Assembly (NCBI RefSeq): GCF_032362555.1
Contig: NC_083535.1
Coordinates: 6,324,001-6,388,000, forward strand
Reading direction: 5' to 3'
DNA from: Amyelois transitella
Lineage: Eukaryota; Arthropoda; Insecta; Lepidoptera; Pyralidae
DNA: 64,000 nucleotides
Below the pieces are notes generated by a model. That model had not been told where the DNA came from. It saw only the letters and a list, made by a program, of their open reading frames with translations, and did no database searches. Below are positions 47,601-51,244 of this stretch, piece by piece. Each line of letters starts with the position of its first letter. The first letter of the stretch is position 1. The position numbers and the translations under genes are program-made.

Positions 47601-47848
47601 TTTAGAACTTTTCTTGGCCAAGATTTTTTAACGCTATGCCATTATGTAGATTTAGCAATATCAACGCCAATACGTTATAGTAGTATAGCGTCGCACTTAC
47701 GTAATTAGATCAGCGCGATCTTAAATAAGCAAATATATGATGACGCTTTGTACTCGAATTTGATCGACTTTCCACTCTTTTTTAATCAATAACTGTGAAG
47801 TGGGAGTTGTATATAATTAAATGTTTCGTCAACCTCTGAGCACATGCA
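44602..47848. other. vari 3' UTR and intergenic DNA
   Basis: The vari 3' UTR starts here; its end is not defined, as several AATAAA-like signals occur. A 16-bp perfect hairpin is at 46,243-46,283 and a SINE-like repeat at 46,720-46,860. No supported coding exon was seen. Confidence 0.5.
46700..46865 (+). repeat. Lepidopteran dispersed repeat
   Basis: It has 'aggttccctgcaatgtttgc', 'ggaggtcagatggtgagtcg' and 'atgactcacccagttcaag'; it is a diverged copy of the repeat near 760-880. Confidence 0.75.
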
Positions 47849-47889
47849 GGCCGTGCGCTGCGTTAAGCGGGTGCACGGCGCGGGCATCC
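47849..47889 (+). repeat. Harbinger left terminal inverted repeat
   Basis: The 41-bp end matches the reverse complement of 50,898-50,938 with one difference. Confidence 0.95.
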
Positions 47890-47957
47890 GACGCGGGCAT
47901 CCGTCGCGGGCATCCGCGTCGTGCTCCGTCGCGGACAAATAGCCCGTCGCGGGTATC
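47881..47957 (+). repeat. Subterminal 13-bp repeats of the Harbinger element
   Basis: CGGGCATCCG occurs at 47,881, 47,894 and 47,907 (period 13), with a variant CGGGTATCCG near 47,950. Such subterminal arrays are likely transposase or partner binding sites. Confidence 0.8.
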
Positions 47958-48028
47958 CGCAACGACCTCCCGCTAAACGCAGCGCCGCCAGTACAATTTT
48001 AGACGTGCGGGTGTACAGTCGATTCATA

Positions 48029-50212
48029 ATGGATTATTTGTTGATATACTACCTAGCCAAAAGACGACGTAGACAACAGCGGCAGCCAATCAGCCCATAT
48101 GTCTCGTCCAGAATGTTGTGTGGAGAATTTGTAACCAAGTTTACGCTATTAAGAGAAGATGAGAGGAGATTTTTTAAGTATTTTAAAATGTCAACGTCTA
48201 CATTTGATGAATTATTTTCGAAACTTGAACCATATTTGAAACATAGTGCTAATACTCTAAAAGTAAGAAGTGTATCAATTATATTACCAATAGAGAGGTT
48301 GGCAATAACGGCAAGGTAAGTAAATAAAATGTTTTTCTTGATATAAAATATTTTTATTTTGTCAGTCAAGATCACGCATGTATACAACCAAATCAGTTAT
48401 TGGACTTATCATAATCATAAGTAACAGTAAAATCACAGTGATTGGATTTATCACTTATTATAATTAACAATATTTTAATCTACAATTACTTTAATGAGAA
48501 CTAAGTATAACAATTTGGTAGTGTAGGTACATACGTAAAGTAAATCAAAATCACAGTCATTGTAATTATCATAATTAACAATATTATAAGGCTACTTCCA
48601 ATCTTTGTCTTTCTTCAAATAGAGTATAAATGCAGTAAATAATTGATAATAGGATTAATGTTCTGCTTGAGTGTCATTTGTCAGTACGATGTTCGATAAA
48701 TCCTCCAATGTAATAACATTTTCTTTTTCAATGTCAATTAATAAGTTTAATACCTTTGATCGAAACAATAATTTTTGATATGTAGACAATTTTTTTATGT
48801 TTGGCATAATAGATTTAAAAAATGACAAGTCTTCATCATTTTCTTCGTCCTTTTTGTGTTGTATGGATTGTAATAATTGTATTTCAAAAGGAGTCGGCGA
48901 CGACGCCTTTTTACGCTTTGATTGTTTTTGCGTTTCTCTGCTTGCTGTGTCATTTTCATTTCCAGATGTACTGGTCTCAGGTATTAACACCTCACTAGTG
49001 TCAACTATTGGGTGTTGGGACAATTCAAGTGTACTTGTATGACCCGAAGAGTCGTCCTGAGAATTTTCCAAAGATTCTTGTCCTTCTACTCTTTTGTTAG
49101 AGTCCAGAAAAGTCATAATATTATAATAGCTGTACCCTTTTCCTTTTTTAGCACCAGAACCAGACTTAAGTTTCTTGTTACTAGCTTTGACTTTCGTATA
49201 GCAATCTCTCGCGGTTTTCCATCGCGCTTGTATTTTTTTTTCTGAAAAATGAAAAATATACATACTTAAAAAATAATTTTGTATTTTTCACAGGTACTTA
49301 GTAAGTGGACATACTTTCGTGGATATGCACTTGGCGTACCATGCGGGACAATCTACCATCCGAAAAATTGTTAATGATGTCTGTCAAATTATATGGCAAA
49401 GACTGAAAGAAGAATGTATACCAGTATTTACACGTATGCGATGGGAAGACATAGCAGAAGGCTTTTTAAGCAACACAAATTTTCCTAACTGTTTAGGTGC
49501 TGTAGATGGAAAACATATACGGATTATAAGACCACCTCACAGCGGATCACTTTACTACAATTACAAACATTACTATTCCATTGTCTTGCTTGCAATGTGT
49601 AACGCAAACTATGAATTCACCTACATAAATGTTGGAATACAAGGTAAAGAATCTGACTCTTCAGTTTTCACCAACAGCACTTTATTTCAACAGATGCAGG
49701 ATGAGCTATTAGATATTCCTCCTCCAAAATCATTGCCAGTGCTACAAAATAATAAACCAACCAATACTGCAGCTACCACACCAGTGCCATACGTCATAGT
49801 TGGAGATGAAGCGTTTGGACTGTCTACACATCTTATGCGACCATATGCGCGGGCTATTGCAATGGATCATAGAAAGAAAATATTTAATTATAGATTGTCA
49901 AGAGCTAGACGTTACATTGAATCAACCTTTGGAATAATGGCCAATAAGTTTCGAATACTTCATCGTCCACTTAACGTTTCTAGAGAACATGCCATTTGTT
50001 TCATAAAAGCAATTTGTATAATGCATAATTTTGTACGAAAAAGAGACGGATTCGGTAATATCAGCGATGTTGTCATAACACCCCGCCATATCCGCGATAT
50101 CACAAATGGATTTGGGCTAGTTCAAAGAAACTCGTATACAATACGAGATCAGTTCGCTGATTACTTTGCCACAAACGGTAAGGTATCGTGGCAAGATCGC
50201 TGTATTTATTGA
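48029..50212 (+). CDS. HARBI1-like Harbinger transposase
   Basis: Two exons, 48029-48315 (donor AG|GTAAGT) and 49294-50212 (acceptor CACAG), give 1206 nt, 401 aa plus stop. The N-terminal part is basic with a helical DNA-binding look (AKRRRRQQRQ; FKMSTSTFDELFSKLEPYLK). The DDE_4 nuclease core shows the three acidic sites: GAVDGKHI (first D), VGDEAFGL (second D) and YIESTFGI (E). No frameshift or stop is seen. In PIF/Harbinger elements this nuclease cuts and rejoins the element but needs the partner protein for nuclear entry and end binding. Its intron (48316-49293) contains the partner's second exon on the other strand. The ATG lies 180 bp inside the left end, so the promoter must be in the terminal region. 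Confidence 0.95.
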
Positions 50213-50696
50213 TTATTTACTTAAGTTAAAAAAAATTTGCTCGTGAAGAGGTCACAATACAATAGTTAAATAACAATTAACATAAGTAAATACAAAATGT
50301 TTACTAAGCCTAAAGGTGGGTACAGACTATGTAACATATTACATGTTATTTTAACATGTTTTATATCATTCAGTGTCCACATTATCTGAAACTTGTTATA
50401 TAGCAATGTCGTATAACATGTTATGTTATATAGTCTGTACCCACCTTAATAAATGAAAGAAGTAAATAATTATGTAGTAAATAAATTTATAAAGTCATAA
50501 TAAAAAGTAAGAATTTACCTGTTGACTTTTTTTCTGTGTCACTGAAGTCCTCATAATTTTCGTATAATTCTTTACAAATCTCGAGCCATGCAGCTTGACG
50601 CGCATCCCTGTCTTTATACAAGTTGTTAGACAGATCCCATAAAGCGGGGCGACATTGCACTTCTAAAATAACACGTTCCGTATCAATATCACTCAT
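48655..50696 (-). CDS. MADF-domain (Myb/SANT-like) Harbinger partner protein
   Basis: Exons 50696-50519 and 49241-48655 give 765 nt, 254 aa plus stop. Residues about 8-100 form a MADF domain (VILEVQCRPALWDLSNNLYK; WLEICKELYENYED; KIQARWKTARDCYTK). It is followed by a Ser/Thr-rich middle, a basic run (KQSKRKKASS) that could be a nuclear localisation signal, and a C-terminal BESS-like stretch (DEDLSFFKSIMPNIKKLS). This pairing is standard for PIF/Harbinger. Its intron (49242-50518) encloses the transposase's second exon and the nested MITE. The ATG is about 240 bp inside the right end. Confidence 0.93.
50314..50446. mobile_element. Nested 133-bp MITE, TAA target duplication
   Basis: It lies inside the Harbinger element. 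The inverted ends AGGTGGGTACAGACTATGTA and TATAGTCTGTACCCACCT are flanked by TAA (50,311-50,313 and 50,447-50,449), the TWA duplication typical of PIF/Harbinger MITEs. It falls in the MADF gene's intron, so it need not break either gene. Confidence 0.88.
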
Positions 50697-50897
50697 GTTT
50701 ATCAACTTGATTGTACAAGCACGGCGCGTGCGACACGGATAACGCAGCGGCGCTCACTGATTTTCTAGAAACATCTCCGCTCGCGTGCTCCGTCGCACGG
50801 ACACGCGAGCGTACCCCCGTCGCCCGCGCCGCGTGTGACGGGCGTTCCGCCTTACGCAGCGCTGCTCTATGAATTTACATGAAACATCACGCCGCGC

Positions 50898-50938
50898 GGG
50901 TGCCCGCGCCGTGCACCCGCTTAACGCAGCGCACGGCC
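50898..50938 (-). repeat. Harbinger right terminal inverted repeat
   Basis: It is the partner of the left end and is followed by the GCA duplication. Confidence 0.95.
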
Positions 50939-51244
50939 GCAAGGTCTTGCTATTGAAGGTAATTATTTACGTCCGCAGACGATGGGGAATATATTAAAAC
51001 GCGCTGTTACCCTATAGGTAAAACAAGGTGTTGCCCAATAAGATATTATTATATTTGCCATTGTGACCTGAATAGCATAGGTTTTAGTCGTGTAATTAAT
51101 TAGTATCCACTATTTGTCTAGCAGTAGGACTATATCGTTAGCGAGATAAAGTATATCAAACCGAAGTAAATAACTCATTGTAATACTCGTTTCGATTAAC
51201 CTGTTTAGATAAAAATTTTTTATTCCGAAGAAGAAGTACCTTTT

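Follow-up and report, generated by a model that had tools for sequence, protein, structure and literature searches.

A complete PIF/Harbinger-type transposon occupies positions 47849-50938 of the window, the 64-kb stretch of the Amyelois transitella genome analysed here, and carries a transposase gene and a MADF-BESS gene on opposite strands, the second exon of each lying within the predicted intron of the other. The initial annotation had described an intact two-gene Harbinger-type element with an opposite-strand interlock, which the terminal inverted repeats (TIRs), Pfam domains and open joined frames bear out, and its exon coordinates, strands and phases all agree with the splice signals and joined translations. 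At the sequence level, the mutual interlock of transposase and MADF-BESS exons is confirmed and is wider than first noticed. Based on the anatomy of the element, its conserved splice junctions, the constraint on both frames, its recent amplification and the conservation of its topology in related families, all documented in genomic DNA, we consider it likely that this is a very recently mobile transposon whose two proteins would be expressed by splicing from convergent interlocked genes; its promoters, in vivo splicing and 3' ends are predicted. The features of the element are as follows.

47846-47848 and 50939-50941: target-site duplication GCA, left and right.
47849-47890, plus strand: left TIR, 42 nt, 98% complementary to 50897-50938.
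47855-47865, minus strand, and 47975-47985, plus strand (1 mismatch): two TNACGCAGCGS motifs at the left end, candidate MADF sites.
48029-48315, plus strand: transposase exon 1, from ATG to the donor AAG|GTAAGT, phase 2.
48316-49293, plus strand: transposase intron, 978 nt, housing MADF exon 2 of the opposite strand.
48495-48490 (ATTAAA), 48479-48474 (ATTAAA) and 48358-48353 (AATAAA), minus strand: MADF poly(A) signals, ahead of transposase exon 1.
48655-49241, minus strand: MADF exon 2, with the rest of the MADF domain, the BESS motif and the stop; acceptor after TTTTTCAG.
49242-49293: 52-nt stretch separating the back-to-back acceptors, intronic for both genes.
49242-50518, minus strand: MADF intron, 1277 nt, housing transposase exon 2 of the opposite strand.
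49294-50212, plus strand: transposase exon 2, with DDE_Tnp_4; acceptor CACAG.
50313-50447: hairpin insert of about 135 bp, inside the MADF intron and the transposase 3' region.
50448, 50480 and 50499, plus strand: transposase poly(A) signals AATAAA, all ahead of MADF exon 1.
50519-50696, minus strand: MADF exon 1, from ATG to the donor CAG|GTAAAT, phase 1.
50740, 50852, 50887 (1 mismatch) and 50922: four TNACGCAGCGS motifs at the right end, spanning 50740-50932, candidate MADF sites.
50897-50938, minus strand: right TIR.

In the expression scheme that we favour, each gene would start near one end of the element, by the candidate MADF motifs, each intron would hold the main exon of the partner, and two mRNAs would be produced by splicing. 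Each transcript would be polyadenylated before the first exon of its partner, leaving mature mRNAs mostly non-complementary and precursors complementary over about 2 kb. The annotated overlap of about 2 kb between the pre-mRNAs is consistent with the first poly(A) signals predicted after the stops (50448 on the plus and 48495 on the minus strand).

The proteins encoded by the joined exons are those expected of a PIF/Harbinger element. The transposase exons join to 401 aa and the MADF exons to 254 aa, both without internal stops, as the matching phases and open frames proposed for them had implied. Transposase exon 2 matches PF13359 (DDE_Tnp_4, E 3.7e-33) and carries acidic residues D, D and E at codons 49505, 49805 and 49919, which we take to be the catalytic triad; D71, D171 and E209 are invariant in a 10-row transposase alignment (A1). 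MADF exon 1 covers positions 2-40 of PF10545 and MADF exon 2 positions 44-84 (E 0.0005), the latter at 20.7 bits, slightly below the whole-protein cut-off of 22 because it holds half a domain, followed by a BESS motif (E 1.6e-11). The MADF domain is divided at the proposed intron. Together, the DDE_Tnp_4 domain with its D, D and E, the MADF-domain second gene, the TIRs and the 3-bp duplication place the element in PIF/Harbinger; an ISL2EU identity was rejected, since the partner is a MADF-BESS protein and a Pfam match to YqaJ is absent. A sequence search of the PDB at E 0.01 gave no relative, and neither an Rfam match above the gathering score nor a tRNA was found within the 64-kb window.

The element has moved very recently, as judged from 11 copies with 0 substitutions. 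A search of the 327-Mb genome with the first 30 nt of the TIR gave 22 matches, every one exact, which account for 11 complete elements, and no further TIR within 3 mismatches. The 11 aligned full-length copies differ at two indel sites: a 1-bp deletion at 49257, which falls in the stretch separating the acceptors and is seen in the window copy alone, and an extra T at 50851 in two copies. Taking a mutation rate of 2.9e-9 per site and generation and assuming a star tree, the lack of substitutions dates the amplification to less than about 30,000 generations. The amplification could owe to proteins supplied by another copy or family, a point against the favoured reading, and the family is too uniform to reveal selection. 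The target-site duplication of PIF/Harbinger elements is usually TWA; here it is TTA in 6 copies, TAA in 2, GGA in 1, GCA in the window copy and a 4-bp TTAA in 1 (L017), an exact 3-bp duplication being present in 10 of the 11. With GCA in the window copy and GGA and TTAA in L014 and L017, target choice looks looser than TWA.

The hairpin insert is equally restricted in its distribution. Its arms are 96% complementary, it folds strongly as RNA (fold z -10.8), and it is confined to the 11 copies in this genome when searched with a 31-nt arm at up to 3 mismatches. Its exact 17-nt ends are also confined to these copies; allowing 1-2 mismatches gave 57 places versus 24 for a reversed control. The near-identity of the copies and this copy-confined hairpin hint at a recent arrival from another species. 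The exon-exon junction of the transposase, as a spliced copy would contain it, was not found in the genome with 30 nt at up to 3 mismatches.

To place the interlock among relatives in the same genome, we ran four-exon profiles on the frames of 32 loci, six of which score like ISL2EU elements. The order of transposase exon 1, antisense MADF exon 2, transposase exon 2 and antisense MADF exon 1 is complete in 20 families, comprising 16 clade A families, out of 18 studied, and four clade B elements (B54, B55, B39 and B42b); F21 and F34b each lack one exon in the profile search. The highest transposase identity among modelled families is 68% (19-20 compared, B42b not included). The interleaving had been presented as a departure from a side-by-side norm, which does not hold here, since all 20 families with four placed exons, those of the second clade included, are interlocked. 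Among the families resolved with profiles that were seeded from the window element, and hence favour its kin, the interlock is the rule rather than the exception, and judging from these genomic arrangements it is a stable architecture kept by many distant relatives in one genome and not a one-copy freak. These counts leave out elements that were incomplete or degraded within the retrieved loci (including L036, L037, L043, B45b and neighbours in L035, L042 and L044) and B32, which matches MADF exon 2 only weakly (E 0.06). Being another copy of the F45 family, F48 is given no separate family count, and F50 is excluded from the two-gene models since the MADF frame has stops in the copy used.

A wider census gave a similar picture of MADF placement. 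Starting from the best 150 among 532 DDE_Tnp_4 candidates, and after removal of 10 that we took as ISL2EU on score and on loci L026, L028 and L031, it covers 140 places. MADF matches within 2.5 kb comprise 65 pairings with exon 2 antisense upstream and 52 with exon 1 antisense downstream, and 13 other placements at 12 places. Both expected MADF exons occur at 44 places, at least one at 73 and neither at 67, a count in which divergent partners will have been missed because the query was one MADF protein. Among the places listed, 10 of the 12 sites with an odd placement have another DDE place within 3.8 kb, and such matches probably belong to neighbouring elements; the sites at 19:1814112 and 23:4820688 have no listed DDE neighbour within that distance. 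Harbinger transposase frames of many different kinds, most of them open, are concentrated in a few islands (C7:2.77-3.11M, C27:2.87-3.19M, C30:1.73-1.90M, C20:1.82-2.01M and 7.22-7.34M, C19:1.79-2.05M, and C23:4.79-4.93M), an arrangement reminiscent of a transposon trap or a small-RNA cluster.

Element boundaries were sought in 19 elements, the window copy with its TIRs and GCA duplication among them, allowing a boundary shift of a few bases and skipping F21, F34b and F48 as incomplete. TIRs with a TTA or TAA duplication were found in F33, F35, F40, F41, F45, F46, F52, F53 and B55, whereas those of F49 and F50 lack an exact duplication. The 3-bp matches of F47, F51 and B54 are not TWA and were not counted as duplications, and no convincing TIR was found in F38, F44, F42a or B39 in the same search. 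Where TIRs were found, interlocked elements span 2.5-3.5 kb.

These data bear on whether the interlock is real at all. The MADF frames could have arrived in an insertion of their own, or one gene, or both, could be read unspliced, and the splice sites were indeed located by consensus (for F34b, the homologous acceptor was substituted manually, leaving the phase unchanged). We regard such an artefact as highly improbable, since all 11 copies of the window element hold the four exons within one TIR pair, and the order repeats in 20 families with phases and domain joins conserved where modelled. The transposase intron is in phase 2 in all 17 modelled clade A elements, and the MADF intron is in phase 1 in 17 of 17 modelled (16 families, F48 doubling F45); both phases are common to all 15 clade A families with models of the two genes. 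The transposase donor lies at the same aligned position in 17/17 modelled clade A families, at or near TLR|YL (R|YL). Among these models we kept two weak ones, F45 with a short MADF protein of 158 aa and F53 with a 506-aa transposase whose start is probably too far upstream.

Further support for the modelled joins, independent of RNA, comes from frames that are continuous where clade A is interrupted. Searches of genome contigs gave one relative, an intronless Harbinger-type transposase (L056:2679-3676), truncated and frameshifted, whose protein is continuous through both transposase junctions; searches of viral contigs gave none. The transposase lies on a 3.7-kb contig (JAHZIU010000197.1) filed under a Betaproteobacteria MAG, which is probably eukaryotic contamination, and no MADF gene was seen on it. 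In clade B, the transposase frame is likewise uninterrupted at the clade A junction, with an intron about 45 codons later and in phase 0 in the 3 elements modelled (B54, B55 and B39); the frames of B32 and B42b are also uninterrupted there. The MADF intron lies within the domain in clade A, and late in the domain or after it in clade B, where those of B54 and B55 are insecure (the B54 acceptor scores poorly and B55 was read by eye).

Since the introns of both genes are non-homologous between the clades, either both junctions shifted in concert or the interlock has two origins. In a tree without outgroup, one branch with support 100/99 splits clade A (18 rows) from clade B (6 rows, two of them short, with B45b placed in the clade by kinship). 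If the two middle blocks of convergent intronless genes changed places, both genes would be split and the interlock would result in one step; such swaps could have occurred at least twice, at different codons in the two clades. We hold this to be possible but doubtful. The dividing branch, the distinct transposase introns (phase 2 at R|YL in clade A, phase 0 about 45 codons on in clade B), the differing MADF introns and the existence of an intronless relative are all compatible with separate events. However, L056 shows no MADF gene and hence carries no information on the layout, models of the clade B transposase intron number only three, and the MADF introns of B54 and B55 are not secure. Moreover, a midpoint root, used for drawing only, nests clade B within clade A, next to F33, F34b, F45 and F49 (92/87); if it is right, one interlocked ancestor with junctions that moved in clade B is simpler, and the midpoint-rooted tree speaks for such a single origin.

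Both reading frames look to be under purifying selection in comparisons between families. For the closest pair, F52 and F53, pS is 0.66 in both genes, and pN 0.19 in the transposase and 0.35 in the MADF gene; in the other listed pairs pN is well under pS, the narrowest difference being that of the F35/F40 MADF genes (0.52 vs 0.69). We give pS and pN in place of dN/dS, since synonymous saturation makes ratios unsafe, and this same saturation implies that the interlock is old.

The geometry of the elements is consistent with transcripts that end before the partner gene begins. Across 17 elements, the transposase stop and MADF exon 1 are separated by a gap of 12-438 bp, and the MADF stop and transposase exon 1 by one of 14-838 bp, where 838 bp belongs to the truncated MADF frame of F45. 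A canonical poly(A) signal lies within the gap in 14/17 cases on the transposase side (6.6 expected, P 1.5e-5) and 15/17 on the MADF side (9.3 expected, P 6e-4). Taken together, 29 of 34 gaps hold a signal ahead of the partner's exon, against 16 expected (P 2e-8), with expectations from first-order resampling of the gap sequence. Transcripts can therefore end before they reach the exon of the partner, so that pairing between mature mRNAs is not a necessary outcome. However, five gaps hold no canonical signal (F47, F52 and F53 on the transposase side, F41 and F53 on the MADF side), and some mature mRNAs may overlap. The back-to-back acceptors are 30-143 bp apart in 12 of the 17 elements and 219-647 bp in five (the B54 value depending on a weak acceptor), and coding density is 50-84% in 11 families, with both extremes from weak models (F45 and F53).

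We suggest that the topology persists owing to compactness, with two genes in 2.5-3.5 kb, and to the difficulty of undoing it, although compactness is uneven, the acceptors of F38, F47 and F51 being 468-647 bp apart. An internal deletion is likely to hit both genes and their separation needs both to be changed; autonomous copies would therefore keep or lose both proteins together. The interlock could instead be kept for regulation, whereby double-stranded precursor RNA or blocked splice sites would lower expression as copy number or transcription rises, either as self-limitation or by feeding into small-RNA silencing by the host. The initial annotation had likewise suggested that the overlap may couple splicing to expression or yield double-stranded RNA that enters silencing. 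We consider this regulatory explanation unlikely. The pre-mRNAs are predicted to be complementary over about 2 kb, but any retained interlock yields an equal overlap and its conservation does not discriminate between the two explanations. The donor itself provides an in-frame stop in 15 of the 17 clade A elements with a listed transposase exon 1 (the exceptions being F49 and F50), such that an unspliced message would give an N-terminal fragment only, yet a GTAAGT donor in phase 2 makes TAA by itself and the stop need not have been selected. In the window element's family, the only one in which such a structure was sought, the transposase 3' region holds a strong hairpin, and the placement of poly(A) signals restricts duplexes between mature mRNAs.

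The ends of the element also offer a candidate control motif. TNACGCAGCGS at up to 1 mismatch has 6 matches in the 64-kb window, all within the element ends near both gene starts, where 1.8 are expected; six were reached in 3 of 100 shuffles. As the motif was picked after viewing the ends, a role in control is suggestive only. In zebrafish Harbinger, the Myb-like protein is described as binding a 9-bp subterminal motif (PMC9710019).

PIF/Harbinger elements with a MADF/Myb-like gene, as characterised in the passages considered of PMC9710019, are the nearest known system and likewise combine a DDE transposase of about 400 aa, a MADF protein, TIRs and mostly 3-bp duplications. Insect PIF genes, mostly domesticated pairs, are described there as adjacent or next to each other, and both proteins as needed for transposition of the rice and zebrafish elements. 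The main text of that source, figures aside, does not use the words opposite, overlap, orientation or nested, whereas the genes of the window element are interlocked. Three loci in the same genome (L026, L028 and L031) have a YqaJ exonuclease gene beside the transposase, not interlocked with it, and a THAP domain was found by profile in L026 and L028. We take this family to be ISL2EU (THAP, DDE_Tnp_4 and YqaJ); it shares with the window element a related DDE domain and an opposite-strand second gene. The loci were rejected as an outgroup, since as ISL2EU elements they are uninformative on the MADF layout. Profile matches at L027, L029 and L030 resemble those of these loci, and the DDE match of the L031 type repeats with equal score at 5 places. 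Passages of PMC9179366 support the ISL2EU name and describe two ORFs.

Nested genes of animals, in the passages considered of PMC8467205, consist of one gene within the intron of another, mostly on the opposite strand, and are expected to suffer transcriptional interference. The window pair differs in that the nesting of the second exons is mutual and the products are thought to be needed together. An interlocked Harbinger layout was not found in the open-licence literature, surveyed mostly by title and abstract and with Repbase and the original insect PIF papers outside its scope.

For annotation, the interlock is a warning: software that expects a single gene in any given segment may predict gene fragments, and the MADF gene may be absent from transposon libraries. 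Provided that expression follows the models, elements as small as these would allow the co-expression of convergent overlapping genes to be tested on plasmids. Two proteins thought to be co-required sit in about the most interfering layout possible, and this layout has outlasted the saturation of synonymous sites. It is conceivable, at rather low probability, that the pair was made at least twice, each time by one rearrangement splitting both genes, and was kept over long divergence as a lock that prevents deletion or capture from separating the two required proteins, with paired precursors limiting expression. If so, the interlock would represent a gene architecture of transposons that recurs and can be selected.
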